This document shows positions 1,142 through 18,565 of a DNA stretch of 38,406 nt, in pieces. Every line of letters starts with the position of its first letter. Positions within the stretch are counted from its first letter, which is position 1. The stretch comes from Acidimicrobiales bacterium. Its GTDB lineage: Bacteria; Actinomycetota; Acidimicrobiia; Acidimicrobiales; RAAP-2. A program made the position numbers and the translations under genes. Below the pieces are notes generated by a model. The model saw only the letters and a list, made by a program, of their open reading frames with translations, searched no databases and was not told where the DNA came from. The stretch covers positions 1-38,406 of the forward strand of contig JASHUY010000007.1 of assembly GCA_030039755.1 (NCBI GenBank), given 5' to 3'.

Positions 1142-1170
1142 TTGACGATGTCGGCGGGTGGGGTTACGAT
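1142..1170 (+). promoter_or_regulatory. Sigma70-like promoter of the catabolic gene cluster
   Basis: A -35 box TTGACG (1142-1147) and a -10 box TACGAT (1165-1170) are separated by exactly 17 bp. Both boxes are close to the housekeeping consensus and stand out in this GC-rich DNA. The predicted start site, about base 1177, falls at the edge of the dyad at 1178-1195. The first downstream gene starts at 1246. Confidence 0.7.
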
Positions 1171-1177
1171 CGCGAAT

Positions 1178-1195
1178 CATGAGTCAGGACTCATG
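1178..1195. promoter_or_regulatory. Perfect 18-bp dyad, likely repressor operator
   Basis: CATGAGTCAGGACTCATG has two perfect 8-bp arms (CATGAGTC / GACTCATG) around a 2-base centre. It begins 7 bases after the -10 box, so it covers the predicted start site, a typical place for a repressor. The size and symmetry suit a TetR- or GntR-type dimer. The TetR gene at 12772 inside the same cluster is the natural candidate ligand-responsive repressor; that link is inference. I did not find a second good copy in the window. Confidence 0.65.
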
Positions 1196-1245
1196 TTCGG
1201 GTGTAGCGCTCGCTGACTCGTGAGGTGCGACGAAGAGAGGGGTGC

Positions 1246-1959
1246 GTGCGCTATCGCGTGGATCCGGGTTCGACCGCTCTTCTCGTCGTCGACATGACGA
1301 ACGACTTCCTTCAACCCGGCGTACCCCAGGAGTGTCCCGCCGGAAGGGAGATCGCTCCGAAGATCGCAGAGCTCATTGATGCTTGTCGACGGGTTGGGAT
1401 CCTCGTGCTGTACACGTCCCACATGCACCGGGCAGATGGCAGCGACATGGGACGCATGGCTGAGCGCTTCACCTACCTCGTCGACGATCGCCGCCGTCCG
1501 GTCACGCTGATCGAGGGAACTCGCGGTGTCGAGGTTGTCAACGAGCTTTCCCCTGCACCCGGAGAGATTGTGATCCGAAAGTCCCGGTACAGCGCCTTCT
1601 ACAACACCGATCTCGAGACGGTGCTCCACACCAAGGGAATCACAACGCTCGTCATCGGCGGCGTTGCCACCAACTTCTGCTGTGAATCGACGGCGCGTGA
1701 CGCGATGTTCCGGGACTACCGGGTGATCTTCCTCGCTGACGGAAACGCAACCTTCGACCTGCCAGACCTCGGTTGGGGGCCCATCGGGCACGACGAGGTC
1801 CAACGTGTCGTACTTTCGACGCTGGCCTCGGGGTTCTGCGAGGTCGCCACCGTGGACGATGTGCTCGCGCGAGTCCTCGCGACCGACGTCGAGCCGGTTC
1901 GCGGCCTTGCCGGCCAGGCGCGTGCGAGCGACATGGCCGGGGACCGGAGCTCCGTCTAG
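1246..1959 (+). CDS. Isochorismatase-fold cysteine hydrolase (amidohydrolase)
   Basis: A 237-residue protein of the isochorismatase/nicotinamidase family. The classical Asp-Lys-Cys triad is visible: D16 in LLVVDMTNDFL, K112 in IVIRKSRYSAFYNTDLE and C145 in GGVATNFCCESTARDAMF. The cis-peptide region before the cysteine (GGVAT) is also present. Members hydrolyse amide or carbamoyl C-N bonds (nicotinamidase, N-carbamoylsarcosine amidase, RutB ureidoacrylate hydrolase, biuret hydrolase), and one branch cleaves isochorismate. GTG at 1246 is preferred because GAGAGG lies 5 bases before it; an in-frame GTG at 1225 is possible but has no visible ribosome site. It is the first gene after the promoter and operator, so it is likely part of the inducible pathway, releasing ammonia or a carbamate from an intermediate. 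The exact substrate is unknown. Confidence 0.85.
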   Translation: MRYRVDPGSTALLVVDMTNDFLQPGVPQECPAGREIAPKIAELIDACRRVGILVLYTSHMHRADGSDMGRMAERFTYLVDDRRRPVTLIEGTRGVEVVNELSPAPGEIVIRKSRYSAFYNTDLETVLHTKGITTLVIGGVATNFCCESTARDAMFRDYRVIFLADGNATFDLPDLGWGPIGHDEVQRVVLSTLASGFCEVATVDDVLARVLATDVEPVRGLAGQARASDMAGDRSSV

Positions 1960-2024
1960 ATCCGGACAATGTGCAGCGGTTCCAACGAGGTCCAGAAGAG
2001 AGGCAACGACAAAAGGGGGGTCAG

Positions 2025-3176
2025 ATGGTTCGCAGACCGATGATGGCGAAGCGCCGTAGGCACTTAGTTGCCGTGAAGCGCGTCGGGATGCTCGTCGGCG
2101 TGCTCTCGATCACGGTCGGGGCAGGTGCGACGAGTACTTCGGCAGCCACGTCGCATTCGACGGTCAAGGACATATCCACGAAGGGGTTGAAGACCGGGTG
2201 GATCTATGACGGCTCGGTCGCGGACAAAGGCTACGACGAGGAGTGGTACGACGCACAGCTGTATCTCGAGAAGCATCTGGGGATCACGGCGACCTTTACC
2301 CAGAACACGCCCTATACCAGCCAGTGGACCACGACCGGCGAGAGGATGGCGGATGCGGGTGCGAAGATCCTCTACGATCCCGGGGACGGCGGCTCGCTGT
2401 TCTTCGCGGCATGTAAAGCGGAGCCAAAGGTGGCCTGCATCGAGAGCAACGGGGTGTTGCCCTTCCCGAAGAACGTCGTATCCCTCTACGACGAGAACTG
2501 GCTGCCTGCGTACCTCGAAGGTATGGCGGCGGGACTGCTGTCGAAGACGGGCGTGATCGGCTTCCTTGCCGCATTTTCGAACACGCCGGCCCCCGTGAAC
2601 GAGACGCTCAACGCTCTCCTGCTCGGTTGCCAAGCCACCCATCCTGGCTGCAAGGCTCTCGTCGACGTGGTGACATCGTGGTACACACCTCCCAAGGAGA
2701 CGGAGGACGCAAATGCCCTTGTCGACGCGGGTGCGACCGTTCTCGGTTCGACCGAGAACGACCCAATTGCGATCGAAGTCGCCCAGAAGCGCCACATATG
2801 GGGACTCGGCAGCTGGGGTAACGGCGTGAGCTCGGGACCCACAGCCTTCGTCACGTCACAGATCATCAACTGGGCTCCTTCCCTGATGACGCTCACTGAG
2901 CAGGTGGCCGACGGCACGTTCCACGGTGGCCGGATCGAGGTGTTCGGGTTCGGGCCGGGCCTCAAGTTGGCCCCGTGGGGACCGAAGGTGCCGAAATCGG
3001 TGCAAGAGAAGGTCAACACCGCGTACTCGCAGATGCTCAAGGGCAAGAACTTCTTCTGCGGTCCGATCTATGACACATCCGGAAAGCTTCGGGTGCCGAA
3101 GGGCAAGTGTCTGACAACGATGTACATCTACGACGGGTGGAACTGGTACGTCCAAGGCGTGAAGATCAGCAAGTAG
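2025..3176 (+). CDS. BMP-family substrate-binding protein of an ABC importer
   Basis: A 383-residue exported protein. The start at ATG 2025 is supported by AAAAGGGGGG just upstream; the frame is open further upstream but overlaps the previous gene. The N-terminus is strongly basic (RRPMMAKRRR), then a hydrophobic stretch near residues 20-34 and an Ala/Ser-rich cleavage area near residue 40. No lipobox cysteine is seen, although many Gram-positive BMP proteins are lipoproteins. The mature protein opens with KTGWIYDGSVADKGYDEEW, the BMP/Med hallmark, followed by ILYDPGDGGSLFF. Known relatives (PnrA, NupN) bind purine nucleosides and some bind nucleobases. The ATPase and two permeases that follow complete the importer. 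The ligand is probably a small heterocycle or nucleoside-like compound, by family and context. Confidence 0.85.
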   Translation: MVRRPMMAKRRRHLVAVKRVGMLVGVLSITVGAGATSTSAATSHSTVKDISTKGLKTGWIYDGSVADKGYDEEWYDAQLYLEKHLGITATFTQNTPYTSQWTTTGERMADAGAKILYDPGDGGSLFFAACKAEPKVACIESNGVLPFPKNVVSLYDENWLPAYLEGMAAGLLSKTGVIGFLAAFSNTPAPVNETLNALLLGCQATHPGCKALVDVVTSWYTPPKETEDANALVDAGATVLGSTENDPIAIEVAQKRHIWGLGSWGNGVSSGPTAFVTSQIINWAPSLMTLTEQVADGTFHGGRIEVFGFGPGLKLAPWGPKVPKSVQEKVNTAYSQMLKGKNFFCGPIYDTSGKLRVPKGKCLTTMYIYDGWNWYVQGVKISK

Positions 3177-3192
3177 ACGGGCAGCCCCACGT

Positions 3193-3210: not shown

Positions 3211-3225
3211 GGTGATCACGGGGAG

Positions 3226-4854
3226 ATGAGAACCATCGACACCGAGTCAGCTTCGTCCATCCGCGAGAGGGCTGGCGAGCGCGCCGTCAAACTTCAGCTG
3301 GAAGGAATCGAAAAGTCCTTCGGACTGTTGGCTGCGGTGGCGGGTGTCGACCTCGACTGCTACGCGGGAGAGGTGCACGCGATTCTCGGGGAGAACGGTG
3401 CCGGCAAGTCCACCCTGATGAAGATTGTCGCGGGGGATCTCCAGCCCGACGCGGGCCACATGTGGCTCGACGGAGAGACCTACCGGCCGGCGTCGCCGAA
3501 GCAGGCGATGCGCCGCGGCATCGGCATCGTCCACCAGGATCATCAACTCGTGTCGCGGTTCACCGTTGCGGAGAATCTCTTCCTCGGGTGGGACGGAGCG
3601 GACCGCGTCGGTGGCCCGAGGTCGCTCGCAGAGCAGGCGTCCGCGATCGTCGACCGCTACGGCTTTGAGCTCGATCCGACGAGCACCGTTCGCGACCTCT
3701 CCGTTGGCGAGCAGCAGCGAGTCGCGATCCTTCGTGCCCTCGTACGGGGAGTATCAGTACTGATCCTCGACGAGCCGACGGCGACGCTGACGCCCCAAGA
3801 GGTCGAGGTCCTCTTCGGGGTCATGCGCAACCTCGCAACCGACGGATGCGCCGTGTTGTTCATCACGCACAAGTTATGCGAGGTTCTCGCAATCTCGGCT
3901 CGGGTCACGGTTCTCCGAGCGGGCGTCCGTGTCGCAGAGTTGGGGGCACACGAATGCGATGAACGCCTGCTGGCCCGAGAGATGCTCGGTCGTGACGTTG
4001 AGTCCCCCTCGAAGGGGGACGCCCCACCGCGCGCGGTCAGCGAACCGATCCTTCAGGCTAGCGGAGTGACGGTGCGCGACGACCGTGGCTCGCTCGCAGT
4101 CGATGACGTCTCGTTCGAAGTGCATTCTCACGAGATCGTCGGCATCGCGGGCGTTGCCGGGAACGGTCAGCGAGAGTTGTCCGAGGCGGTGACCGGAGTG
4201 CGGCGAGTCGCGTCTGGTCGCGTCCTTGTGGATGGGAAGGAGATGACGGGGGAGGATGCCGCTTCATATGTCCGTGCTGGAGTCGGACACATCCCCGAGG
4301 ACCGCCTCACGGCGGGGATGATCCTCCGAGAGTCGATCGCGAACAATTCCATCTTGAAGATGCTCCATGTCGAGACGGATCGATCGAACCTCACCCGCGG
4401 ACCATGGCTACGCCGAAGGGAGATCGATCGCTTCGCTCGTCAACTTCTCGTCGAAGGGCAGGTTTCGACGAGCGATCCGAAGGTCAAGGTCGCCAACCTC
4501 TCGGGCGGGAACATCCAGCGCTTCCTCGTTGCCCGCGAGCTCCGTGCGGCGAGTCGTCTCCTCGTGGCCGTGCACCCGACGCGTGGTCTCGACGTAGGAG
4601 CTGCCGACCGAGTCTGGCGCATTCTGCTCAGGGCGCGTGACGAAGGTATTGCTGTCCTGTTGATATCCGAGGACCTCGACGAGGTGCTCAGTCTGTCGAA
4701 TCGGGTACTGGTCTTATCGGCTGGCCGGATTGCCGGGGAGCTGGACAACACCGGAGCCCCTCCCTCGCGCGAGCACCTCGGAATGCTGATGGGGGGCGTC
4801 GAGCAAGAGGCTCTCGTGGGCTCCGCTGCGGCGCTGAAGGGCTGTGGACCGTGA
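3226..4854 (+). CDS. ABC transporter ATPase, duplicated, nucleoside/sugar type
   Basis: A 542-residue protein with two ATP-binding cassettes in tandem, the usual form for RbsA/YufO-type importers. The first cassette has Walker A GENGAGKSTLMKI, signature LSVGEQQRVAILRAL and Walker B VLILDEPTATLTP. The second has a degenerate Walker A (GVAGNGQRELSEAV), signature LSGGNIQRFLVARELR and a Walker B-like LLVAVHPTRGLDVGA in which the usual acidic residues are lost. This asymmetry is normal in the family. It powers the BMP-type importer with the two permeases that follow. ATG 3226 is directly abutted by GGGGAG, an unusually short ribosome-site spacing. The permease start overlaps the stop of this gene (GTGA), which suggests translational coupling. 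Confidence 0.93.
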   Translation: MRTIDTESASSIRERAGERAVKLQLEGIEKSFGLLAAVAGVDLDCYAGEVHAILGENGAGKSTLMKIVAGDLQPDAGHMWLDGETYRPASPKQAMRRGIGIVHQDHQLVSRFTVAENLFLGWDGADRVGGPRSLAEQASAIVDRYGFELDPTSTVRDLSVGEQQRVAILRALVRGVSVLILDEPTATLTPQEVEVLFGVMRNLATDGCAVLFITHKLCEVLAISARVTVLRAGVRVAELGAHECDERLLAREMLGRDVESPSKGDAPPRAVSEPILQASGVTVRDDRGSLAVDDVSFEVHSHEIVGIAGVAGNGQRELSEAVTGVRRVASGRVLVDGKEMTGEDAASYVRAGVGHIPEDRLTAGMILRESIANNSILKMLHVETDRSNLTRGPWLRRREIDRFARQLLVEGQVSTSDPKVKVANLSGGNIQRFLVARELRAASRLLVAVHPTRGLDVGAADRVWRILLRARDEGIAVLLISEDLDEVLSLSNRVLVLSAGRIAGELDNTGAPPSREHLGMLMGGVEQEALVGSAAALKGCGP

Positions 4855-6068
4855 GCCTCTCTCTCCCAACGGTCACCGACGTCCATGTACGGCAATCCAT
4901 CGGGGTGCGCTCGCTGCGCAGTCGTTGGACGTGGATTCGACAGGAGCCGTCCGAAACCCGGAGTTGGATCTGCCGGCTCATCGCAGTTGTGCTCGCGCTC
5001 GTGGTAGCGGGCGCCTACTTGGTGATCACCGTCCACGTTCCCGATGTCCTCGGCCTTGTATTGCGCACAACGTTCACGACCGCACCCGGCTTGCAGGAGC
5101 TCGTGGTGCTCGCAACGCCCTTCTTTCTCACTGCCATGGCCGCACAGATACCGCTGCGGGTCGGACTGTGGAATGTCGGTGGAGAAGGGCAGTTCTTCGC
5201 CGGAGCATGGCTCGCGACTGCATTTGCCTTCTCGCTACCTCACGCTCCAGGTGGGGTCCTGATCATCGGGATGCTGCTAGCGGGCGCCGTGGGCGGGGCA
5301 ATCTGGGTCGCGATCCCCGTCCTCGTCAAGACGCTCCTGAACGTCAACGAGATCATCACCACCTTGATGCTGAACTTTGCCGCAACGTACTGGATCGCAT
5401 ATTGGATTACGGGGTCGTGGCGTTACCCCTCCACGCAAGGTGGCACGATCGAAAGCCGTTTCATGCCTGCGCAGTCCAACCTCCCACTGATTCACCTCGC
5501 AGGTGGGCTCGATTCGGGACTGATAATCGCGGTGGCGCTCACGATCGCCGTTGGCCTGGCAGTGCGATATTCGATTTTCGGTTACCGGACTCTCATCGTT
5601 GGATCCGGTCGGGCCGTGTCCTCGTACGCTGGCGTGCGGGTCCGATGGGTGATCGCACTGAGCCTCCTTCTCGGGGGAGCCCTCGCAGGCGCCGGTGGCG
5701 TATTGCAACTCATCGGCAACTCCCACCAACTCACGCCCGGACTCTCGGACAACACCGGGTACCTCGGAATCGCCGTCGCCGTCTTGGCCGGAGGGTCGGT
5801 CCTCGGAGTGATCGTGATGTCGTGCCTTCTCGCCGTCATCATGTCCGTCGGTCAGGCGGTCCAGATCTACGGAGTCTCGTCCGAGGACGTCTTCATCTTG
5901 ATCGGCCTGCTGCTCCTCCTCGCGACCATCGCCGAGGTGGTCGCCAAATACCGGCTCGTGCGGAAAGTTCCCACGGGTGGGACCGCTCGGGTGCCGAAGG
6001 AGCCCGTCGGTCTTGCACCGAGCGTCTCGGAGTCGTCACGAGCGGCCGTCGCGGGCGACGTCGGGTAA
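4851..6068 (+). CDS. ABC importer permease 1 (BMP-type nucleoside system)
   Basis: A 405-residue integral membrane protein of the branched-chain/ribose permease family (BPD_transp_2). GTG 4851 overlaps the ATPase stop by four bases. A long hydrophilic N-terminus (about 40 residues) precedes the first helix; roughly eight to ten hydrophobic segments follow. The stretch LRVGLWNVGGEGQFFAG is the typical permease motif of NupP/YufP-like subunits, and VNEIITTLMLNFAA is another family landmark. The C-terminal 40 residues are hydrophilic. It pairs with the next gene to form the channel for the BMP-bound ligand. Confidence 0.9.
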   Translation: MSLSLPTVTDVHVRQSIGVRSLRSRWTWIRQEPSETRSWICRLIAVVLALVVAGAYLVITVHVPDVLGLVLRTTFTTAPGLQELVVLATPFFLTAMAAQIPLRVGLWNVGGEGQFFAGAWLATAFAFSLPHAPGGVLIIGMLLAGAVGGAIWVAIPVLVKTLLNVNEIITTLMLNFAATYWIAYWITGSWRYPSTQGGTIESRFMPAQSNLPLIHLAGGLDSGLIIAVALTIAVGLAVRYSIFGYRTLIVGSGRAVSSYAGVRVRWVIALSLLLGGALAGAGGVLQLIGNSHQLTPGLSDNTGYLGIAVAVLAGGSVLGVIVMSCLLAVIMSVGQAVQIYGVSSEDVFILIGLLLLLATIAEVVAKYRLVRKVPTGGTARVPKEPVGLAPSVSESSRAAVAGDVG

Positions 6069-6083
6069 GCGGGAAGGGCTGCC

Positions 6084-7010
6084 ATGCACACGTTCGAGCT
6101 CTACTTCGCCGCCGCGATCCTGGCGGGGACCCCACTGCTTCTTGCCGCGACCGGAGAACTGCTCGGGGAGACGGTCGGGTTGCTCAACGTCGGTATCGAG
6201 GGGGTCATGCTGATCGGTGCGGTGACCGGTGTCGTCGTCACGCTCCACACCAACAACGCCGAGCTCGGACTTCTCGTGGGCGCACTGGCGGGAGCCGTCT
6301 TCCTGCTCGTCTTCTACGCGCTGCCCGTGGTCGCGCTGGGGACGGAGCAGATCCTGCCGGGTTTCGGCGTGTGGTTCGTCGGCCTCGGCCTCTCCCAGCT
6401 GATCGGGGTCAACTACGAGAACACGCCGGTCTCGAGCGGGTCAACGGTCGTCAGGCTTCCAGGTATCGACCGCATACCCGTCGTGAAGGAACTGATCGGC
6501 CAGTATCCGTGGCCCGTCTATCTGGCGTTCGTCCTACCGTTCGTGGTCGCCTGGGTGCTCGCCAGGACCCGACACGGACGCAACCTGCGAGCAATCGGTG
6601 AGGATCCTGTCGCGGCGTCCGCTGGAGCGGGGATCGCGGTGCGATGGTGGCGCACCGTCTACGTAGCCGTGAACGGGCTCCTGGGTGGCTTCGCAGGCGC
6701 AGTACTCGCGGTCATCGCCGTCGGCGAGTGGGGCACCGACGTCACTGCCGGCCGTGGGTTCATTGCGCTCGCGGTCGTGATCTTCTCCGGTTGGCGGTCG
6801 ATGCGGCTCATCGTTGGTGCCTACATCATCGGCGCGCTCCTCATACTCGCGGATCTCGGTGGCGCCCTCTCGTGGCCGATTCCCTCGGAGTTCCTCGACA
6901 TGATGCCGTACATCGGAGCGGTCGCGATCCTCACGGTGTGGGCGCTTCGCCCGGGTAGGCGCGCAGCGGCCCCTGGGTCGCTGGGCGTGCGCCTCAAGTA
7001 CAGCGGATAG
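6084..7010 (+). CDS. ABC importer permease 2 (BMP-type nucleoside system)
   Basis: A 308-residue membrane protein, NupQ/YufQ-like. The motif GLLNVGIEGVMLIGAVTG near the N-terminus is the hallmark of the second permease in BMP systems, and LRAIGEDPVAASAGAGI is the cytoplasmic loop expected to contact the ATPase. GGAAGGG precedes ATG 6084 by about 6 bases. The gap to permease 1 is only 15 bases, so the four transporter genes form one unit. Confidence 0.9.
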   Translation: MHTFELYFAAAILAGTPLLLAATGELLGETVGLLNVGIEGVMLIGAVTGVVVTLHTNNAELGLLVGALAGAVFLLVFYALPVVALGTEQILPGFGVWFVGLGLSQLIGVNYENTPVSSGSTVVRLPGIDRIPVVKELIGQYPWPVYLAFVLPFVVAWVLARTRHGRNLRAIGEDPVAASAGAGIAVRWWRTVYVAVNGLLGGFAGAVLAVIAVGEWGTDVTAGRGFIALAVVIFSGWRSMRLIVGAYIIGALLILADLGGALSWPIPSEFLDMMPYIGAVAILTVWALRPGRRAAAPGSLGVRLKYSG

Positions 7011-7056
7011 AGCAGTTTGGAACTTCGAGTGTTAGTCCAACGAGAGGAAGGACGAC

Positions 7057-7916: not shown

Positions 7917-9037
7917 CCGGAGCGGTGATCCTGGGTTACGGCCTCCATCCGTTCGGCCGGTTCCCGGACAGACTCCCTGCGGTTGTCGCGCGGGCGGCAA
8001 TCGAAGCTGCACTCGGGCGGGCAGGGTTGTCCGCCGCTTCGATCGGTGCCGTGTTCGCTGCACACACGGCACCTGGTAGTGGCGGTGGGGCGGCGGTGGC
8101 GGCGGCGGCTGGCATCAGTGGAGTGCCAGTCGTGAATGTCGACCAGGCTTGCGCGAGCAGCTCGGCTGCGGTCGTGCTCGCTTGCCACGCGCTCGAAGCG
8201 GACGCGTATGAAGTCGTGCTCGTCATCGGGTACGAGAAGATGTCGCCGGGTTTCGTTCGCCTGAGCCAGCCACATTCGGGCGACGACCCGTGCCTCGGCT
8301 TCGATCTACAGCCGGTCCGCTACGCACTGAAGGCGAGTCGGTATCTGCAGGCGTACGGCGCGGACGATGCGATGCTCGCCGAGGTGACGGTGAAGTCTCG
8401 AGCTCACGCGGCTCTGAACCCGGACGCGCACCTGCGATCTCCAACTTCGATTCAGGAGGTCCTGATGTCTCCGATGGTTTCCACGCCGCTGACCCGGCTG
8501 CAGTGCTGTCCGACGAGTGACGGCGCCGCCGCGCTCGTGCTCGGCAGGTACGACTCGGTTGCTCGGCGCACGCACGCTCGCATCGTCGGCTGGAGTCTCG
8601 GGACCCCGGGCGCGACAGAATCGCAAGACGCTGGGGTACCGGAGAAGTTCACCTCGCGGCTTGCGCGGGAGGCCTATGACCACGCGGGGATCGGGCCCGA
8701 CGACGTGGCGGTCGTACAAGTGCACGATGCCTTTACGATCGCTGAACCGCTGCGCCTCGAAGCTCTCGATCTGGTTCCGGAGGGCGAGGGCCTTGCTTGG
8801 ACTGCAAAGGGGATGACGTCAATCGGTGGGCGACTGCCGACGAACACGGATGGCGGGCTGCTGAGCCGAGGCCATCCTGTGGGCGCGACGGGCGCTGCGC
8901 AGCTGATCGAGATCGCCCGGCAGCTTACCGGCGATGCAGGAACCCGTCAGATCGATCCCCGCCCCCGCGTCGGCATCTGCCAGAACGTCGGTGGTGGCGA
9001 GAATGCCGGCGGCGTCGTGACGATTCTAAGCCGATGA
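7913..9037 (+). CDS. SCP2-type thiolase / acetyl-CoA acetyltransferase-like
   Basis: A 374-residue thiolase-fold enzyme. The nucleophilic cysteine lies in VDQACASSSAAVVLAC, the typical SCP2-thiolase segment VQVHDAFTIAEPL replaces the NEAFA motif, the catalytic His is in LLSRGHPVGATGAAQ, and the glycine-rich end is QNVGGGENAGG. Enzymes of this branch carry out retro-Claisen or related C-C cleavage of acyl-CoA and often need a DUF35 partner, encoded directly upstream. It would release acetyl- or propionyl-CoA, or perform a related aldol cleavage, at the end of the pathway. ATG 7913 overlaps the DUF35 stop; its own stop overlaps the start of the next gene. Confidence 0.88.
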   Translation: MTGAVILGYGLHPFGRFPDRLPAVVARAAIEAALGRAGLSAASIGAVFAAHTAPGSGGGAAVAAAAGISGVPVVNVDQACASSSAAVVLACHALEADAYEVVLVIGYEKMSPGFVRLSQPHSGDDPCLGFDLQPVRYALKASRYLQAYGADDAMLAEVTVKSRAHAALNPDAHLRSPTSIQEVLMSPMVSTPLTRLQCCPTSDGAAALVLGRYDSVARRTHARIVGWSLGTPGATESQDAGVPEKFTSRLAREAYDHAGIGPDDVAVVQVHDAFTIAEPLRLEALDLVPEGEGLAWTAKGMTSIGGRLPTNTDGGLLSRGHPVGATGAAQLIEIARQLTGDAGTRQIDPRPRVGICQNVGGGENAGGVVTILSR

Positions 9038-9900
9038 AGTTCCCCCCCTTCGCGTACGAGAGACCGACCCGGCTGGACGAGGCCTGCGAGATGCTCGCCG
9101 TGGAGGGGGCACGCGCGCTTGCCGGAGGGCAGAGTCTGCTTCCGCTCATGGCGCTGCGACTCGCGCGGCCGGCGACTCTTGTCGATCTTGCCCGGGTCTC
9201 TGAGCTCACCGGGCTCGGAGTGGACGATGGAGGCAATCGCCGGCTTGATATGGGCGCGATGACCACCCACGCGCAGATTGAAGCGGACAGTTCGATCCGA
9301 GCGCGCTTTCCGGTCCTCGCGAAGATCGTGTCCCACATCGCCCATCCTGCCATCCGGCATCGTGGAACGGTCGGTGGCTCGATCGCGCACGCGGACCCTG
9401 CAGCCGAGATTCCGGCGGCGTGCATCGCGCTGGATGCAGAGGTCCTGATCTCATCGGTGAAAGGGACACGAAGCGAGCCCGTCGAGTCTCTCGTCGCCGG
9501 TCCGTACCAGACGACGCTCCGGGACGGGGAGATCGTGACTCGCGTGATCTTCCCTCTGCGTGCGGAGAGGAGGGCCGGCATGGACGAGGTAGCGCTGCGA
9601 GCGGGAGACTTCGCACTTGCCGGTGCCGTGTGCGTGCTGGATAGAGCAGGGCGGGATGATCAAAGAGGAACGGTCACCTTCTTCGGCGTCGAACCACGGC
9701 CGCGCCGCGCCGAGATCGACCTCGAGCGGGTCAGAACCTCGGCCGATGACCGTACGTACTGGGTCGAGCTGGCTTCGCGCCTCGACGAGGTGATCGAGGA
9801 CGTTCACGGAGATCCCTCTTTCCGCCGGCATCTTGCGGCGGTCACTGCACGCCGAGCGTTCGCGAGTGCCTCGACCCAGCAAGTAGGGGACTTCGTCTGA
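9034..9900 (+). CDS. Molybdenum hydroxylase, FAD-binding medium subunit
   Basis: A 288-residue CoxM/CutM-like subunit. ATG 9034 overlaps the thiolase stop (ATGA). FAD-binding motifs are clear: ALAGGQSLLPLMALRLARP near residue 30 and HRGTVGGSIAHADPAAEIPA near residue 110. The C-terminal CO-dehydrogenase flavoprotein domain follows. It moves electrons from the iron-sulfur subunit to an acceptor. The extra four-cysteine insertion of 4-hydroxybenzoyl-CoA reductases is absent, which argues against that ring-reducing enzyme and for an ordinary hydroxylase. The subunit order M-S-L and the overlapping starts are typical of CO-dehydrogenase-like operons. Confidence 0.93.
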   Translation: MKFPPFAYERPTRLDEACEMLAVEGARALAGGQSLLPLMALRLARPATLVDLARVSELTGLGVDDGGNRRLDMGAMTTHAQIEADSSIRARFPVLAKIVSHIAHPAIRHRGTVGGSIAHADPAAEIPAACIALDAEVLISSVKGTRSEPVESLVAGPYQTTLRDGEIVTRVIFPLRAERRAGMDEVALRAGDFALAGAVCVLDRAGRDDQRGTVTFFGVEPRPRRAEIDLERVRTSADDRTYWVELASRLDEVIEDVHGDPSFRRHLAAVTARRAFASASTQQVGDFV

Positions 9901-10388
9901 TGCGCATCGCACTCGACCTGAACGGGGCACAAGTCGAGGCCGACGTCGAGCCGTCGGTCAGCCTCGCGGATCTGTTGCGAACAAAGCTCGGCGCCTTGAG
10001 TGTCCACTTGGGTTGCGAACAGGGAGTCTGTGGAGCATGTGCAGTCCTCGTCGACGGGCGGACCGTTCGCTCGTGTCTCATGCTGGCGGTGCAGGGGGAC
10101 GGTCGCTCGGTCACGACGGCGGAAGGCGTGCCCCGGAGAAGGAGAGGGGAGTGGGCGGCGATCGAGTCCGCCTTCGTGGAGTTGAATGCGTTCCAGTGTG
10201 GCTTCTGCACTTCCGGCATGGTGGTGGCTCTCGAGGAGCTGCTCTCTCGTGAGGCGGTGACGCGATCGGAGGTCGCCGCACAGCTCTCCGGCCAGATCTG
10301 CCGATGCACGGGCTACGCGCCAATTGTCGAGGCTTTCGAGCGGGCGCTTGCGTCGTCCGGCCGGCTCTGCGATGGAGATGAGACATGA
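9900..10388 (+). CDS. Molybdenum hydroxylase, [2Fe-2S] small subunit
   Basis: A 162-residue subunit with two [2Fe-2S] clusters. The plant-type N-terminal cluster is C-x4-C-x2-C-x11-C in GCEQGVCGACAVLVDGRTV and the following SC. The C-terminal cluster near the molybdopterin uses CGFCTSGM and, about 30 residues later, CRCTGY. ATG 9900 shares its first base with the stop of the FAD subunit (TGATG). It carries electrons from the molybdenum centre to FAD. Confidence 0.96.
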   Translation: MRIALDLNGAQVEADVEPSVSLADLLRTKLGALSVHLGCEQGVCGACAVLVDGRTVRSCLMLAVQGDGRSVTTAEGVPRRRRGEWAAIESAFVELNAFQCGFCTSGMVVALEELLSREAVTRSEVAAQLSGQICRCTGYAPIVEAFERALASSGRLCDGDET

Positions 10389-12775
10389 CGCTCGACATTG
10401 ACCGGAGGAAAGGTCACCTTCGCGGCGAGCGGGGACGGTTCACCCGAGGCGGAGCCAGGTACAGCGCCGACTTTGCCGGGAGCGAAACCCTGGCCGTCGG
10501 CTTCGTCCGCAGCACGTACGGCCGTGCCCGGCTCCGCGGGGTTGATCTGACTCGAGTTCGGGCGAGCCCTGGGATCTTCGCCGCCTTCGACCATGATGAC
10601 GTATCCGGGCATGTCGCGCCTCTTCCCGTTCGCTATGGGCCGGGAAAGACGTACGACTGGCATTTGCTCGCCGACGACGCCGTCTCGTTCGTAGGCGAGC
10701 CGATCGCGCTCGTAGTGGGCGTGAACCGAGGTGCTGTGGAGGAAGCCTGTGAGGTGGCCGCGATCAACTACGAGCCGCTCGATCCGGTCATTGGTGTCGA
10801 TCTCGCGCAAGTAGAAGGGGCGGAGCTTGTTCGCCCCGAAGTTGGCTCAAACGTCTTGTTCGCCGCAGCAAGACACGCGGGCGACGTCGGCGCGTCGCTC
10901 GAATCAGCGGAGGTCATCGTCGAACGGACCTTCCACCTCGCTCGGCAGAGCGCCTGCCCTCTCGAGAACCGAGGCGTCGTCGCCTTCGAGGAGCCGTTCA
11001 GCGGTGACCTCGTCATCTGCACGTCAACGCAGATCCCACACATCCTCCGGGTGGCGGTCGCGACCGTGCTGACTCGCCCAGAGGAGTCGGTGCGCGTTCT
11101 CGTCCCCGACGTGGGCGGCGGATTCGGACTCAAGTGCCAAGTCGCCGCCGAGGAGTGTCTCGTCGCATGGGTTGCACAGCATCTCGGTTGTCGCGCCGCT
11201 TGGCTCGAGGACCGCTGGGAGAACCTGGTCGGGAGCAACCACGCGCACGACGAGTGGGTGCGGCTTCGCGTAGGTTTCACCACTGACGGGGAGATCACGG
11301 CGGTCGATGCCGATGTCACGGTCGACGTCGGTGCCCACTCTTCATACCCGCTTTCGGCGGCACTCGAGCCATCGAGCGTGGCCGCGCACCTGTTCGGTAG
11401 CTATCGGGTACCGGCATCGCACCTCGCGTTCCGGGGAGTCGCGACCAACAAGTGCCCGTCTGGTGCGTACCGCGGGGTTGGGGGTTCGGTCGCGAACTTC
11501 GCAACCGAGCGGATCCTCGACGAAGCGGCCCGAGCTCTGGGGGTCAGCAGAATAGATATTCGCCGGCGGAACCTCCTCGGCATGGCCGACATGCCCTACC
11601 GGCACCCGATCGGAGGGCTCATCGATGTAGGCGACCCACGAGGCCTCTTCGATCGCCTGCTTCAGCGGGTGCAGGACGAAACCCCGACCTTGGCTGCGCT
11701 CGACGCGACGGACGCGCGTTTCCAGCCGGGCGACTCCGGAGCTCTCGTCGGGGTGGGCTTGTCCGTCTTTGCCGAACACAGTTCGCCGGGGAGCGCCATC
11801 TACCGAGGGCGCGGGGTGACCGAGGTCCCGGGATACGACGCCGCGCGCGTCGAGCTACGCGATGACGGCACCTTCATCGTCTTCGTGAGCTCCGCCGATG
11901 CGGGTCAGAGGCATGCCGAGATCTGCAGGCACCAGGTCGCCGAAGCCCTCGGCGTCGACAGCGAGGGTGTCTCAGTGGTCGAAGGGGACACGGCGCGCTG
12001 TCCGAAGGGGACCGGCACCTTCGCATCCCGCTTTGCCGTGGCGCAGTTGAGTGCCGCGCTGCGGGCATCGACGCGGATGTCGGAACGCCTCGTCGAGGTG
12101 GCTGCCAGCTTCCTCTCTTGTGACGTCGAGGAGGTGAAGCGCGACGAGATGAGCTTCGTGAGTGGCGCAGGTGGTGCCAGCGTGACCGTGAAGGAGCTCG
12201 CGCATTGGTTGTACTTCCCCGATGGCGCACGTACCGGTCGTGTCTTCGAGGTGCCCGTGGTGGAGTCGGGCTACTGGGACGGCGGCCCGACCTTCCCGAA
12301 CTGCGCGATGCTCGCCGTCGTGGAGGTCGACGCTGAGACCTTCGTCTCGAAGGTGACGAGAGTCGTCGCCGTCGAGGACTGCGGTCGGGTTCTCGACGAG
12401 GCAGCTGTTCTCGGCCAGCTCCGCGGTGGGATCGTCATGGGGATCGGCGATGCAACGTTGGAAGAGCATCTATACAGCCCTGAGGGTGAAATTCTGACCG
12501 CGTCGTTCATGGATTACCTACTACCCACCGTGGGCGAAATGCCCACTTTCGAGCTGACATTGGTCAACGACGAACGCCTGTACAGCGCGCGCAGTGAATC
12601 CGGCGCAAAGGGTGTCGGAGAGGCGGGAACGATCGGCGCTGTCGGTGCGGTGGGCTGCGCGCTTGCCAGCGCGATTCGATCTCGCGGGGGCATTCTCGAC
12701 TCGCTTCCCGGTACGCCGCTCCGGCTGTTCGATGCTTGCAGCTCGAGACTGGAGAAGGGGACGGTGGGACGATGA
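10385..12775 (+). CDS. Molybdenum hydroxylase, molybdopterin large subunit
   Basis: A 796-residue xanthine-oxidase-family catalytic subunit that binds molybdopterin cytosine dinucleotide. Visible landmarks are VPDVGGGFGLK, CPLENRGVVAFEE, GAYRGVGGSVANF and, near the C-terminus, GAKGVGEAGTIGAVGAV, which contains the catalytic Glu. The loop reads AYRGVGG and lacks the AYxCSFR signature of form I CO dehydrogenase, so this is a hydroxylase of an organic substrate. Relatives hydroxylate carbon next to nitrogen in purines, nicotinate, quinoline or isoquinoline, or oxidise aldehydes. ATG 10385 overlaps the stop of the small subunit. No maturation gene (CoxD/CoxF or MocA-like) is in the window. Class is firm, substrate unknown. 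Confidence 0.93.
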   Translation: MTLDIDRRKGHLRGERGRFTRGGARYSADFAGSETLAVGFVRSTYGRARLRGVDLTRVRASPGIFAAFDHDDVSGHVAPLPVRYGPGKTYDWHLLADDAVSFVGEPIALVVGVNRGAVEEACEVAAINYEPLDPVIGVDLAQVEGAELVRPEVGSNVLFAAARHAGDVGASLESAEVIVERTFHLARQSACPLENRGVVAFEEPFSGDLVICTSTQIPHILRVAVATVLTRPEESVRVLVPDVGGGFGLKCQVAAEECLVAWVAQHLGCRAAWLEDRWENLVGSNHAHDEWVRLRVGFTTDGEITAVDADVTVDVGAHSSYPLSAALEPSSVAAHLFGSYRVPASHLAFRGVATNKCPSGAYRGVGGSVANFATERILDEAARALGVSRIDIRRRNLLGMADMPYRHPIGGLIDVGDPRGLFDRLLQRVQDETPTLAALDATDARFQPGDSGALVGVGLSVFAEHSSPGSAIYRGRGVTEVPGYDAARVELRDDGTFIVFVSSADAGQRHAEICRHQVAEALGVDSEGVSVVEGDTARCPKGTGTFASRFAVAQLSAALRASTRMSERLVEVAASFLSCDVEEVKRDEMSFVSGAGGASVTVKELAHWLYFPDGARTGRVFEVPVVESGYWDGGPTFPNCAMLAVVEVDAETFVSKVTRVVAVEDCGRVLDEAAVLGQLRGGIVMGIGDATLEEHLYSPEGEILTASFMDYLLPTVGEMPTFELTLVNDERLYSARSESGAKGVGEAGTIGAVGAVGCALASAIRSRGGILDSLPGTPLRLFDACSSRLEKGTVGR

Positions 12776-13548
12776 CCGACACCACCAAGCCGAGGGCGAA
12801 GGAAGAGCGCGAGCGCGATGTGTCGTCGGACGTCGACGGCCTCGGGAGCCGGCCGAAGTGGGTCCACGCGCCGGCACTCGCTGCGACGGCGCGGGGCGAG
12901 CGCACCCGGCAGCAGATCATCTCTGCGGCTGATGAGCTGTTTCGTACATCCACCAAGTACGAGAACATTGCGGTAGCGGACATCGCGCGGGCGAGCGGAA
13001 CCTCTGTTGGCACGATCTACCGGTACTTCGAGAGCAAGGAGGACCTGCTGCACCTCTTGCTGTCGAACGCTTTCTGGAGGATGTACAAAGCCTCTCGGGG
13101 TGTGTGGCGATCGGAGGAACCGGCGGAAGTGAACATCGAGCGGACGACGCGCGCCTATCTGGAGGCATTCTTCGAGGAGCGCGCGTTCCTTCGGGTGGCG
13201 TTCAGGATCATCGCGACGTCGGATACCGTTCGTAAGAGCTGGTGGGCGATGCGCCGAGAGTTGCGAGAACGAATGCGGTCGCGACTCCAACAGGACTTCG
13301 CGCTCGGAACGGCCGCACCGCTGAATGCCGAGGTGGCGATCCGGGCTCTGCTCGGGATGGTGAACGCGTACGCGGTCCAGGCATTCATCGATGAGGAGTA
13401 CGGACCGGCCATGAGGGAAGAGATCCCCGAGATCGCGACGGTCTTGGCCCAGATCTGGTACCGGTCGGTGATCGGAGTGGGGCTGCCGGACGGTGTGGTG
13501 CTCGACGAACTCGTGCCGATCAGTGGCAGGCTCGCGGAGGAGCGGTGA
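12772..13548 (+). CDS. TetR-family transcriptional regulator, cluster-internal
   Basis: A 258-residue regulator. About 40 charged residues precede the DNA-binding domain, which starts at RGERTRQQIISAADELF and has the helix-turn-helix ADIARASGTSVGTIYRYF followed by ESKEDLLHLLL. The ligand-binding domain is helical and contains a conserved-looking EAFFEERAFLRVAFRI segment. ATG 12772 overlaps the stop of the Mo subunit (ATGA), so it is co-expressed with the pathway. The palindrome at 1178-1195 is its most likely operator, with a pathway substrate or CoA ester as inducer; this is inference. Confidence 0.9.
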   Translation: MTDTTKPRAKEERERDVSSDVDGLGSRPKWVHAPALAATARGERTRQQIISAADELFRTSTKYENIAVADIARASGTSVGTIYRYFESKEDLLHLLLSNAFWRMYKASRGVWRSEEPAEVNIERTTRAYLEAFFEERAFLRVAFRIIATSDTVRKSWWAMRRELRERMRSRLQQDFALGTAAPLNAEVAIRALLGMVNAYAVQAFIDEEYGPAMREEIPEIATVLAQIWYRSVIGVGLPDGVVLDELVPISGRLAEER

Positions 13549-13552
13549 CGTG

Positions 13553-15112
13553 ATGACCGACCCCGTGCCGTTCCGTCCGTTCACCTACCTGGCCGCGAAT
13601 GCGGAGCGATGGCCTGAGGGCCCCGCGATCTACGAGCTGGGCGAGATCGTGACCTTCGGCGAGTTCTTCGACCGGGTCGGCTCCCTGGCTGTGGAGCTCA
13701 GGGCGGTCGGCGTGGGACCCGGGGACGTCGTTGGAGTTCTGCTCGGGAGCACGTGGCAGTACGTCGCGTTGGAGATTGCCGTACCGGCGCTCGGTGCTGT
13801 GATCCTGCCCCTTTCCCCATCCCTCGGCGCGTACGAGCTCGAGTCCGCTCTCAAGCGATCTTCGTCTGCCGTGGTGGTGACGGATTTTGAGGGAACCGAG
13901 CTCGTGGAGACCGCAGCAAAGCGTCTCGGGAGCGTACGGGTCGTCGAAGTGGGCGAAGTGGCGTCAAGCGGAGCTCACGCTCGCGCAAGCGCAGTCGAGC
14001 CGCACCCGACGCGACCGGACGATGTCGTCCAGATCGCGATGACTTCCGGAACGACGGGCCTGCCCAAACTGGCGTCGCTGTCGGCAGAGCTGAAGCAGCT
14101 CACCTTCGAGGGGTTCACTGGGAGACTCGGTATCGAGGTGGGCGACCGCGTGCTTCCGCTCTCCCCGGTGTCCCAGGGCGTGGGTGAAATGTGCCTGTAT
14201 GCACTACGCGTGGGCGCGTGTCTCGTGATGGCTCATGAGCGCCGATTCTCAGCCGATCGCGGCCTCGAGCTCGCGGAGGAGTCCCGTGCGACGGTAATCG
14301 GGGTGGTCCCGACGATGATCCGTCGGATGCTGCAGAGCTCCGCGTTCGACCCAGCCGGGCTGGAGTCCGTCCGGGTAACCGCTGTCGCCGGGGCACCAAT
14401 GCCACCAGACCTCGCCGAGAGCTGGGAGCGGAGGACGGGATCGCGCGTGTGCGGATTCTTCGGCGCCATGGACATCGGGCAGCTGGCGGTCGCGAGTCCT
14501 GAGGATCCCCAGGAAAAGCGTTGGCACACGGTCGGCCGGCCCCACGTACGCGCAGAAGTGATGATCTGCGACCCGGACGGTCGCTCTCTCGACAGGGGCG
14601 AGGTCGGTGAGATCTGCATGAAGGGACCGCTGGTGCAGAGTCGGTATTGGAACGAGCGTTACGGACCATTTGCAGAGGATGGTTGGGCGCACTTTGGAGA
14701 TGTCGGCTTCATCGACGACGATGGGTTCGTTCACGTGAGTGGGCGGATGAAAGACATCATCATCAGGGGGGGAGAGAACATCAACCCGTATGAGCTGGAG
14801 GCGGTGCTCGTGGAACATCCGGACGTCAGCGACGTCTGTGTGGTGGGTGTCCGGGATCCCGACCTGGGCGAGCGGGTCGCAGCGTGTGTCGTCGGGCTTC
14901 CCGGACACGAAGTGAACCTCGAGTCCCTTCGCGAATTTCTGAAGATGAGGGGGATCGCTCGCCACAAATGGGTCGAGCGCCTCGTCCTGATCGACCAGCT
15001 TCCCCTCGGTGGTACGGGAAAGATCCTGCGCAGAGAGTTGCGCGATCGGGTCGAGCGAGTGCTTTCGGAGGAGGAGCGTGCGTCGGGGGGTGGCGATGCA
15101 GACGCGAGCTGA
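13553..15112 (+). CDS. AMP-dependent acyl/aryl-CoA ligase
   Basis: A 519-residue ANL-family enzyme of usual length. The phosphate-binding loop is QIAMTSGTTGLPKLAS, the A5 region is GFFGAMDIGQ (Asp where Glu is usual), then DGWAHFGDVGFIDDDGFVHV, the hinge GRMKDIIIRGGENINPYELE and the C-terminal catalytic Lys in LPLGGTGKILRREL. It activates a carboxylate to a CoA thioester, feeding the crotonase, SDR and thiolase of this cluster. Its closest-looking relatives are FadD/cyclohexanecarboxylate-CoA-ligase-like. ATG 13553 is directly preceded by an in-frame GTG at 13550; GGAGG at 13536-13540 could serve either. Confidence 0.9.
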   Translation: MTDPVPFRPFTYLAANAERWPEGPAIYELGEIVTFGEFFDRVGSLAVELRAVGVGPGDVVGVLLGSTWQYVALEIAVPALGAVILPLSPSLGAYELESALKRSSSAVVVTDFEGTELVETAAKRLGSVRVVEVGEVASSGAHARASAVEPHPTRPDDVVQIAMTSGTTGLPKLASLSAELKQLTFEGFTGRLGIEVGDRVLPLSPVSQGVGEMCLYALRVGACLVMAHERRFSADRGLELAEESRATVIGVVPTMIRRMLQSSAFDPAGLESVRVTAVAGAPMPPDLAESWERRTGSRVCGFFGAMDIGQLAVASPEDPQEKRWHTVGRPHVRAEVMICDPDGRSLDRGEVGEICMKGPLVQSRYWNERYGPFAEDGWAHFGDVGFIDDDGFVHVSGRMKDIIIRGGENINPYELEAVLVEHPDVSDVCVVGVRDPDLGERVAACVVGLPGHEVNLESLREFLKMRGIARHKWVERLVLIDQLPLGGTGKILRRELRDRVERVLSEEERASGGGDADAS

Positions 15113-15878
15113 CGGAATTTCAGTTGCGTGGCACGAGGTCGGACGCGGCCGCTCGCTCATCCTTGTCCATGGGCTCGCAGACGACCATCGTGCCTGGAGA
15201 AAAGTTCTGCCGAATCTCCTGCTCGATCATCGTGTGATTCTCTACGATCTTCGCGGCCACGGCGAAAGCGAGCTCGGAGAGGCGGACGGAACCCTGACCC
15301 AGCTTGGTTCCGACCTCGTGGGCTTGATGGACGCCCTCGCCTTGGACCGCGCGGTGATCGCGGGGTTCTCGCTCGGTGGCACCGTGGCGATGCGTGTCGC
15401 AATCGATCATCCACACCGTGTGGAAGGGCTCGCCCTCATTGCGACGTCCAGCCGGGTGAATGCAGCAGCTGCGCAGTGGTACCAGGAGCGGGTGAACGCC
15501 GTGGTATCGAGCGACCCGGGTCTTCGGGAGCGACTCGATCACGATACGGCGGATGTCTACCGCAACGACCCGGGCGAGTTGGAAGAAGGACTCACCATCC
15601 GCCGGCAATCCACTGCTGACCCTCGCGGCTACGCCAACGCCTGCAGGGCCATGGTAACCCTGCACGAGCAACCGCTCGACGGGGAGCTCGATCGCATCGT
15701 CGCGCCGACCGTCATCATCTCAGGCGAAGCAGACCAGCACTGCCCTCCCCGCGCAGGCGAGATCATAGCCAGCCACATTGCGGGGAGCGCGCGTTACGTT
15801 CTTCCTGCCACCGGTCACCCGATACCCCTCGAGCGACCGGTGGAGCTGGCGACCGCCGTTCGGGAGCTTCGCCGGTAG
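15096..15878 (+). CDS. Alpha/beta hydrolase, enol-lactonase/RutD-like
   Basis: A 260-residue alpha/beta hydrolase. The oxyanion region is ILVHGLADDHRAW, the nucleophile S92 sits in AGFSLGGTVAMR, the acid is the Asp of SGEADQHCP and the base is the His of PATGHPIPLE. The arrangement is like 3-oxoadipate enol-lactonase and RutD-type carbamate or aminoacrylate hydrolases. It overlaps the end of the ligase by 17 bases; GGGGGG lies about 6 bases before ATG 15096. It would open a lactone, ester or carbamate in the pathway. Class is firm; substrate not readable. Confidence 0.85.
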   Translation: MQTRADGISVAWHEVGRGRSLILVHGLADDHRAWRKVLPNLLLDHRVILYDLRGHGESELGEADGTLTQLGSDLVGLMDALALDRAVIAGFSLGGTVAMRVAIDHPHRVEGLALIATSSRVNAAAAQWYQERVNAVVSSDPGLRERLDHDTADVYRNDPGELEEGLTIRRQSTADPRGYANACRAMVTLHEQPLDGELDRIVAPTVIISGEADQHCPPRAGEIIASHIAGSARYVLPATGHPIPLERPVELATAVRELRR

Positions 15879-15907
15879 GAGCCGGGCGAGAAAGGAGATC
15901 GGCCAGG

Positions 15908-16909
15908 GTGAGTTCTCTCAGCATCAGCGTCGGAATCAGCCCGCGGGAATCCTTCGTGGACTGGATGTCCTTCGTGCACCGTCTCGAAGATGAAGGAGTG
16001 AGTCGCGTCTGGCTGATCGATTCTCAAGCTGCGATGAAGGACGTCTATGCGGGGCTCGCAACGGCGGCGATCAGCACTGAGCGGCTTGAGCTGGGCACTG
16101 GGGTCACGAACCTGGTGACCCGGCACCCTACGGTCACCGCGAACGCCATCGCCGCTATCGCAGAGCTCTCTGAAGGTCGCGCGATCCTCGGACTAGGCGC
16201 GGGCGACTCGGCGGTCTACGCTCTCGGGAAGAGCCCGTCTCCGCTCCGCGAGGTCGAGGATGCCCTCACGTTCTTCCGGGCGGTGTTTTCCGGGGACCGC
16301 GGAACGTGGGAGGGCGAGCGTTTCTCACTCGCCTATCCCTCCCCGAATGTCAGGGTGTTCCTTGCGGTAAGTCAGGAGAAGATGTGCCGTCTTGCGGGCC
16401 GACTCGCAGACGGTGCAATCGTGATGGGACCTGCGCAACACGATGTCATGGCGCGCCAGGTCAGCTGGGTGCGCGACGGCATGAACTTGGCGGGACGTCA
16501 CCGCTCGGAAGTCGAGATCTGCGCGGTAACGACGATGTCGGTCTCCGACGACGTGGACCGCGCGGTCCGCGACGTACGTTCGTGGGCGACCGGTCAGGCC
16601 CGCCTGCTCGCCGACGTGAGGGACCTGCCCGAGAGCTTGGAGCAATACCGGGACGAGTTCGTCCGCGCGAAGTCATCGTACGACTACACGGAGCATCTGT
16701 CGACCCACGCCGATCACAAGGACGTGCTCAGCGAGGAGCTTGTTCGTACTCTCGCTATCGCTGGGCCGCTCGATCAGTGTGGCGCGCGCCTTTCTCGCCT
16801 CATGGAGACCGGAGTGGACAGCTTCATCTTCCCGCTCATGGGATCGGGCCGTCTCGAACGGTTGCGGGTGCTGCGTGACGCAGTTCGTCCAAACGTGCTT
16901 TCGAGGTAG
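15908..16909 (+). CDS. Luciferase-like F420/flavin-dependent oxidoreductase
   Basis: A 333-residue TIM-barrel protein of the bacterial-luciferase superfamily (LLM class). Hallmarks are SRVWLIDSQ, the LELGTGVTNLVTRHPTVTA strand-loop and GRAILGLGAGDSAV, which are close to the methylene-H4MPT reductase/F420-dependent branch. Members are two-component flavin monooxygenases or F420-dependent dehydrogenases or reductases. The uracil-opening RutA belongs to the same superfamily but looks different in this region. GTG 15908 has AAGGAG 10 bases ahead. No flavin reductase gene is nearby, which mildly favours F420. It may oxidise or reduce the ring of the substrate. Confidence 0.85.
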   Translation: MSSLSISVGISPRESFVDWMSFVHRLEDEGVSRVWLIDSQAAMKDVYAGLATAAISTERLELGTGVTNLVTRHPTVTANAIAAIAELSEGRAILGLGAGDSAVYALGKSPSPLREVEDALTFFRAVFSGDRGTWEGERFSLAYPSPNVRVFLAVSQEKMCRLAGRLADGAIVMGPAQHDVMARQVSWVRDGMNLAGRHRSEVEICAVTTMSVSDDVDRAVRDVRSWATGQARLLADVRDLPESLEQYRDEFVRAKSSYDYTEHLSTHADHKDVLSEELVRTLAIAGPLDQCGARLSRLMETGVDSFIFPLMGSGRLERLRVLRDAVRPNVLSR

Positions 16910-16918
16910 GCGAGAGCG

Positions 16919-17701
16919 ATGGACCTCGGCCTCTCGCAGGTCACCGTAGTTGTCTCGGGCGGCGCTTCCAACATCGGCCGCGCGATCAGTCTCGGGTTCG
17001 CGGGTGAGGGCGCGAACGTGATCGTTGCGGACATCGATGAAGTCCAGGCGAATCTTGTAGCGGATGAAGCTGAGGGAGGAAGGGTCGTCGTTCGGCATAC
17101 GGATGTGACCGACACCGAATCCGTCGACGCAACGGTCGAGTTCGCACTTTCTCGTTTCGGTTCCATCGAGGTCCTCGTCAATTGCGCCGGTTGGACGGTC
17201 GACAGGTTGTTCCTGGAGAAGCCGAGGGAGGAGTTCGAGAAGGAAATCGCGGTCGACATGTGGGGTTTCATCAACTTCACCAGACCTGTCCTCGCGCACA
17301 TGGTTGAGCGGCGGCGTGGCCGCGTCGTGTCGATCGCGTCGGACGCGGGGCGAATCGGGGAGTGGCGGGAGGCCGTGTACTCCGGGACGAAGGCAGGGGT
17401 GATCGCGATGACGAAGGCGATCGCGAGGGAGGTCGGGAAGTACGGAGTCACCCTCAACGTCGTTTCCCCGGGGTTCATCCCAGGTAATTCGGAGACGTCC
17501 GGTGCACACTCGATATGGAGTGGCGAGCAGGGTGAGCAGTTCCCTCCAGAGGTCCTGGACAAGGTTGCCCGCTCGTATCCGGTACGTCGCCTCGGTCGAG
17601 CCGAGGACGTTGTCGCGCCGGTTCTGCTGCTCGCTTCCGATCGGGCGTCGTTCATCACTGGACAGACGCTCTCGGTGAGCGGCGGCTACACGATGATCTG
17701 A
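16919..17701 (+). CDS. Short-chain dehydrogenase/reductase
   Basis: A 260-residue classical SDR. The nucleotide-binding loop is SGGASNIGRA (residues 13-22, SGG instead of TGG), VADID follows strand 2 and suggests NAD preference, NCAG takes the NNAG position, and the catalytic residues are Ser in VSIASDAGRIG plus Tyr and Lys in YSGTKAG. The C-terminal FITGQTLSVSGGYTM is typical. FabG-like enzymes of this kind oxidise 3-hydroxyacyl-CoA or alcohol intermediates. It starts 9 bases after the luciferase-like gene and precedes the crotonase. Confidence 0.92.
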   Translation: MDLGLSQVTVVVSGGASNIGRAISLGFAGEGANVIVADIDEVQANLVADEAEGGRVVVRHTDVTDTESVDATVEFALSRFGSIEVLVNCAGWTVDRLFLEKPREEFEKEIAVDMWGFINFTRPVLAHMVERRRGRVVSIASDAGRIGEWREAVYSGTKAGVIAMTKAIAREVGKYGVTLNVVSPGFIPGNSETSGAHSIWSGEQGEQFPPEVLDKVARSYPVRRLGRAEDVVAPVLLLASDRASFITGQTLSVSGGYTMI

Positions 17702-17746
17702 GTGAGGTGAACGGCATGCTGGTGAGAGTGTGTCCGCTACTTCTCC

Positions 17747-18463: not shown

Positions 18464-18565
18464 TTTCGAGGTGAAGCGCCGCAAGTTGCGTGGGGCCATG
18501 GGGTCGTCCACGAGGTGGCACCGGGACTCTCCGATCCAACTTACGAAGACATCGAAGGAGCAGGA

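Follow-up and report, generated by a model that had tools for sequence, protein, structure and literature searches.

Among the regulators described so far, the closest arrangement appears by analogy to be that of MbdR, a TetR-family protein of Azoarcus sp. CIB which represses the anaerobic 3-methylbenzoate cluster and whose inducer is 3-methylbenzoyl-CoA, the first CoA-thioester of the pathway (PMC4424350). BkaR of the mycobacteria is an autoregulated, dimeric TetR-type repressor with a palindromic operator before its own and neighbouring genes (PMC3920632), features that the regulator considered here would share. In mycobacteria more generally, a tetR gene co-transcribed with its neighbours is the second most frequent arrangement, according to a survey of TetR operators (PMC4482099), and it would be the arrangement in the window, by which we mean the whole 38,406-nucleotide stretch of DNA analysed.

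We consider it likely that the TetR-family protein encoded at 12772-13548 has its operator in a dyad at 1178-1195, from which it would block the promoter of an operon of about 18.5 kb (1246-19696; Table 1). Judging from comparison of related loci, the dyad is very probably the docking site of this protein.

Table 1. Features of the proposed operon and its control region
Feature	Coordinates	Strand	Basis and remarks
-35-like element TTGACG	1142..1147	+	sequence, promoter scan; TTGAC also 30-46 bp before 4 of 5 other dyads
-10-like element TACGAT, 17-bp spacer	1165..1170	+	hexamers at orthologous sites only loosely alike
Candidate operator dyad CATGAGTC-AG-GACTCATG over predicted start site	1178..1195	.	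conserved in G201, G456, G929
Ribosome-binding-like AGAGAGG	1234..1240	+	read from sequence
Isochorismatase-family hydrolase, first gene of proposed operon	1246..1959	+	PF00857 (searched with 1243-1959)
Bmp/PnrA-like substrate-binding protein	2025..3176	+	PF02608; 64% in G201, 83% in G456
ABC transporter ATPase and two permeases	3226..7010	+	PF00005; PF02653 twice
Small protein without Pfam match	7057-7479	+	Pfam search
OB_ChsH2_C match below cut-off	7482-7916	+	Pfam search
Thiolase-like protein	7913-9037	+	Pfam search
Three-subunit molybdenum hydroxylase (FAD, 2Fe-2S, Mo subunits)	9034..12775	+	domain search
TetR-family regulator, proposed dyad binder	12772..13548	+	PF00440, PF17932; orthologues only in G201, G456, G929 at limits used
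AMP ligase, alpha/beta hydrolase, luciferase-like oxidoreductase, SDR, enoyl-CoA hydratase, amidase	13493..19696	+	gene order shared with G456 apart from one extra hydratase-like stretch there; AMP ligase given from its longest-ORF start, 13493, the true start probably lying later

The dyad sits in the gap between a PaaK-like ligase gene on the left (stop 1052) and the isochorismatase gene on the right, the likely start of which is GTG 1246, 5 nt after AGAGAGG; this start was set by the G201 protein, which begins at the matching place. The earlier note, made from the letters alone, had described TTGACG and TACGAT at a spacing of 17 bp followed after 7 bases by the dyad, and the elements lie exactly so, with the spacer at 1148-1164, CGCGAAT at 1171-1177 and CATGAGTCAGGACTCATG beyond. 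Its wording, a strong promoter with a perfect 18-bp operator, needs adjustment: the 8+8 arms are perfect inverted repeats, but the 2-bp centre AG is not self-complementary, 16 of 18 positions are symmetric and the reverse strand shows two mismatches; the -10 elements are weak matches, and no measurement backs the label "strong". A 14-codon ORF (1179-1223) has its ATG within the dyad and its TGA stop before the isochorismatase start, and would be nearly leaderless given transcription from about 1177.

Taken by itself, the window gives weak evidence, promoter matches and dyads both occurring in it at the chance rate. The promoter scan gave 2 matches in 20 kb against 1.9 expected, and 8+8 dyads with spacers of 0-12 number 30, nested arms being counted separately, where shuffles average 23.2 (range 15-36). 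Within the 190 bp from 1053 to 1242 any such dyad arose in 176 of 5000 shuffles, and one with a spacer of 0-4 in 73 of 5000. We therefore gave up judging the dyad from the window alone; it rises above chance because it is conserved in orthologous loci.

These loci were reached through the regulator and through the first gene of the operon. TetR searches of 172 genomes of the family (1e-15) and of 396 of the phylum (1e-30) found only the window's own protein, while 397 genomes of the order (1e-35) yielded G201 and G456 besides it, and 35 genomes of G201's family (1e-25) yielded G201, G456 and G929. At the limits used, three other genomes thus carry orthologues, with 60-72% identity, though the first search pass scores limited candidates per genome and may have missed others. 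With the isochorismatase as query, four of the 397 order genomes passed 1e-35 (the window's own, G201, G533 and G026), as did six of the 396 phylum genomes: its own and five without the cluster in the stretches examined. The isochorismatase relatives of G533, G801, G743, G595, G654, G757, G026 and G007 were rejected as orthologous loci, the stretches examined lacking the cluster; next to the G007 isochorismatase gene lies one for a molybdenum hydroxylase (31-41% identity), with no transporter or TetR match on that contig. A Dehalococcoidia MAG contig (L026) was likewise set aside: it encodes a nearly full-length isochorismatase relative (458-1135, 52% identity), with no other cluster gene on its 6.4 kb and, read by eye, no such dyad upstream. 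These nine relatives, eight genomes and L026, do not enter the conservation count; the search of relatives gave no match to the dyad pattern in G007 or G026. A plasmid search returned no record at 60% identity or more.

The three orthologous loci differ in layout. From Bmp to amidase, G456 and the window are colinear, the position of tetR included, and the extra hydratase-like stretch follows tetR; counterparts of the genes for the isochorismatase, the small protein, the OB-like protein and the thiolase were not found on the G456 contig. In G201 most of the cluster genes form two halves that diverge, tetR being read away from the PaaK-like gene; within the 40 kb examined there was no match to the luciferase-like, hydratase and amidase genes. 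This locus (L034) also has two more ORFs on the minus strand, at 10775-11284 and 11344-12288, which separate the isochorismatase gene from the PaaK-like one; the window has no ORFs in this interval. In G929 one end of the contig carries the TetR gene and a hydratase-like stretch, and about 6 kb from TetR there are more distantly related molybdenum hydroxylases (32-46%).

A dyad stands before a transcription unit in all four genomes found with this TetR, the window included. The earlier note had named loss of the dyad from orthologous clusters as grounds for refutation; it is kept at all three of the other TetR loci, directly before tetR in two of them. In G456 it is CATGAATCGGGATTCATG (C43:29387), with perfect arms, before the Bmp gene. 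G201 has three, all on C130: CATGATTCAGGGTTCATG before the PaaK-like CoA-ligase gene (13767), CCTGAATCATGACTCACT before the isochorismatase gene (10769, with an overlapping alternative frame CATGATTCAGGGTTTATC at 10776) and CATGATTCAGGCTTCATC before tetR (14051). In G929 CATGAATCATGATTCACT precedes tetR (C318:54350, with an overlapping frame at 54343). Mismatches to the window dyad, of 16 positions, number two for G456, three for the G201 PaaK-like site and four for each of the other three. With the window dyad as the sole query, the best match in the 400 bp upstream was equalled or beaten in 0 of 1000 shuffles for G456 Bmp, 4 for G201 PaaK-like, 11 for G201 isochorismatase, 14 for G201 tetR and 26 for G929 tetR (frame 54343, not 54350); in G201 the PaaK-like region shares sequence with the tetR region, for which the stretch upstream of 14300 was used because the tetR start is uncertain. 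When the three contigs are cut into 174 tiles of 400 bp, six tiles reach four or fewer mismatches to the window dyad; five of these, we take it, hold the sites listed here and one, in G929, does not.

The G456 dyad, CATGAATC-GG-GATTCATG, is altered symmetrically in both arms relative to the window, by the pair of changes GAGTC/GACTC to GAATC/GATTC. Such a paired change is predicted by a dimer-binding site and not required by a coding signal. It fits a DNA dyad better than a leaderless ORF at 1179-1223, which was rejected as an explanation; ATGs recur in the relatives' dyads because the operator contains CATG.

For specificity within genomes a looser pattern, CATGANTCNNGANTCATG, was searched, the free positions of which were picked after seeing G201 and G456, so that only the 400-bp upstream test uses the window dyad alone. 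Perfect matches occur in the window's own genome (G000) and in G456 only, the other 60 of 61 relatives and the other 34 genomes of G201's family having none. At one mismatch or fewer, 6 of the 60 other relatives match at seven sites, with no TetR homologue found within about 1.5 kb of the six of these that were examined, and in G201's family only G201 and G456 match. At up to two mismatches, all matches in G201 (2), G456 (1) and G929 (2) lie in the TetR loci; reversed controls gave 0, 0 and 2, the G929 control equalling its real count, and 0 in G000. The own genome has four further places at this level. These were tried as a wider regulon and dropped, the TetR query giving one chance-level match near them (E 0.38). 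With CATGAGTCNNGACTCATG, the window site is the sole place with fewer than three mismatches in the 2.98-Mb assembly (70% complete); three further places have three mismatches, and the total of four does not exceed the eight of the reversed-pattern control, which led us to reject a wider regulon on this pattern as well. A literature search with the motif letters gave nothing relevant among the matches listed.

The promoter geometry recurs along with the dyad. TTGAC stands 30-46 bp upstream, within the 50 bp before the dyad, at five of six sites, against 1.1-2.8% of 50-bp tiles of the same contigs. The window arrangement, TTGACG-17-TACGAT-7-dyad, is repeated at the G201 PaaK-like CoA-ligase gene as TTGACA-17-TAGGCA-7-dyad. 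With hexamers as assigned, the G201 isochorismatase gene has TTGACG-17-AAAGAT-4-dyad, G929 has TTGACC-17-TAAGAA-1-dyad and G456 has TTGACC-18-TAGCCT-16-dyad, the distance from the -10-like hexamer to the dyad running from 1 to 16 bp across sites. At the G201 tetR site TTGAC is absent from the 50 bp preceding the dyad, which lies just before a -10-like TATTGT and may fall between -35 and -10. A short dyad with a small centre lies at the predicted promoter of the unit that would be regulated, and it precedes the regulator's own unit, directly before tetR in G201 and G929 and before the proposed tetR-containing operon in the window and G456. The simple repression that the earlier note read from the window geometry gains support from the retention of the dyad with the TetR orthologue and from this recurring geometry.

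The gene that the earlier note placed inside the cluster is there, with ATG 12772 overlapping the stop of the preceding gene. Its product has an N-terminal TetR helix-turn-helix (PF00440, 42.3 bits, cut-off 24) and a C-terminal match to PF17932 just over the cut-off (27.0 against 26.4 bits); a single-sequence structure model is all-helical but poor (pLDDT 54). All 16 NCBIfam matches to named TetR subfamilies (KstR, FadR, MftR, FasR and others) fall far below their cut-offs, the best with 44 bits of 250, and a PDB sequence search gave nine weak TetR-family matches (best E 3e-9). The helix-turn-helix segment VADIARA..TSVGTIYRYF, in which the two dots vary, is unchanged in the window, G201, G456 and G929, which fits a shared operator; TSVGTIYRYF is presumably the recognition helix. 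A literature search for a TetR protein in this order of bacteria gave nothing related.

In the mechanism we propose, a TetR dimer would occupy TGANTC-NN-GANTCA, contained in CATGANTC-NN-GANTCATG, where it would cover the start site immediately downstream of the -10 and block RNA polymerase at the promoter of the operon 1246-19696. Besides the regulator, this operon encodes a Bmp-type ABC importer, a molybdenum hydroxylase, a CoA ligase, hydrolases and an amidase. Since tetR is one of the genes of the operon, its own expression would be limited as well. TetR binding, repression, transcription as a single operon and autoregulation are what we infer; the inducer, plausibly the imported substrate or an early CoA-thioester, which would release TetR, is a guess.

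Of the other readings, the one that survives best, though we think it unlikely, is that the dyad is a real operator bound by another regulator encoded elsewhere, the in-operon TetR using a different site. The pairing of TetR with the dyad is drawn from sequence comparison, and IclR, GntR and other palindrome-binding families also use dyads of about this length; the dyad is nonetheless present in every locus found with an orthologue, directly before tetR in G201 and G929, no other DNA-binding domain was found among the scanned proteins of 93-20828, and the G201 genome has no further site with two or fewer mismatches elsewhere, as expected of a local regulator. That TetR activates from the dyad, or both activates and represses, seems to us highly improbable. 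A few TetR-family proteins do activate, among them FasR, to which the protein at 12772-13548 has a weak NCBIfam match (29 bits where the cut-off is 330), but a site downstream of the -10 is a repressing position, and the dyad lies there at five of six promoters with the hexamers as assigned. Slightly less probable still is that the inverted repeat works in the transcript, as a hairpin at its 5' end, and not as DNA. Stems of 7 bp do form in the window (-7.2 kcal/mol) and G456 (-4.9), and one of 5 bp at the G201 PaaK-like site (-4.7), whereas the other three sites fold at 0, -1.2 and -1.4 kcal/mol; the G929 dyad starts only 1 bp after its -10-like hexamer, the G201 tetR dyad precedes TATTGT, and the sole Rfam match in the window at the gathering score is a tRNA. 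The hairpin was rejected on these folding energies, and the symmetric change in G456 better fits a DNA dyad. A random dyad beside a random promoter-like match, for which the chance rates within the window might speak, has a negligible probability, the sequence being kept as a dyad upstream of matching units in three further genomes and chance being very unlikely after the 400-bp shuffle test.

Repression of this operon by its own TetR would govern a set of genes that overlap or follow one another within 65 bp. The best NCBIfam matches of the isochorismatase-family protein are RutB and biuret amidohydrolase, both far below cut-offs. The gene-family names (Bmp importer, molybdenum hydroxylase, isochorismatase-type hydrolase, amidase, CoA ligase) suggest degradation of a nitrogen-containing, perhaps cyclic compound; a literature search for this gene combination found none.

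A tRNA-Lys on the minus strand (19780-19853) lies 84 bp beyond the end of the operon at 19696, with its 3' end facing the operon, and at the tRNA the G+C content jumps from about 65% to about 71% (63-66% before 20 kb, 68-74% after). A deacetylase gene beyond the tRNA is present in 9 of 13 genomes of the genus, the window's own included; in all eight of the others tRNA-Lys lies within the 1.5-kb flank, and no other cluster gene occurs in the approximately 0.3 to 8 kb of flank beyond it. The operon may be a genomic island at tRNA-Lys; a misassembly or chimeric contig at this point is also possible. Words of 12-18 bases from the tRNA 3' end occur nowhere else in the window, no attachment repeat was seen in it, and the general domain scan found no integrase among the scanned proteins; at its other end the cluster runs beyond the contig. 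The G+C-richer half also encodes a 655-aa protein (26113-28080) with two BPD_transp_2 stretches, possibly a fused permease. With somewhat less than even confidence, we suggest that an undescribed TetR subfamily of sparse distribution has CATGANTC-NN-GANTCATG as its operator and travels with a catabolic operon that is itself mobile (Bmp importer, molybdenum hydroxylase, CoA ligases, amidase) and was inserted here at the 3' side of tRNA-Lys, with regulator and operators kept matched through rearrangement of the cluster.

For a catabolic operon that is so far uncharacterised, the TetR protein and the dyad together offer a concrete, testable candidate pair of regulator and operator. Searches with the operator sequence can lead to the regulon, and TetR with its promoter might serve as a sensor to identify the substrate.

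Like the proposed site, the MbdR operator is an 18-bp palindrome, spanning the start site and -10 at two promoters, and it is repeated before the catabolic operon, a CoA-ligase gene and the regulator gene, much as in G201 (PMC4424350). The MbdR operator sequence is different, ATAC-N10-GTAT (PMC4424350), and the likeness drawn here is one of arrangement. BkaR differs in its core, GTTA-N-T-N4-A-N-TAAC, in its branched-chain keto-acid genes and in its divergent arrangement (PMC3920632). The mycobacterial survey is alike in method, seeking motifs conserved between orthologous tetR promoters (PMC4482099); the likeness drawn here is one of method and arrangement. The logic proposed here would be that known from MbdR and BkaR and the mechanism an ordinary one, the new elements being the putative operator sequence and the pairing of regulator and operator.
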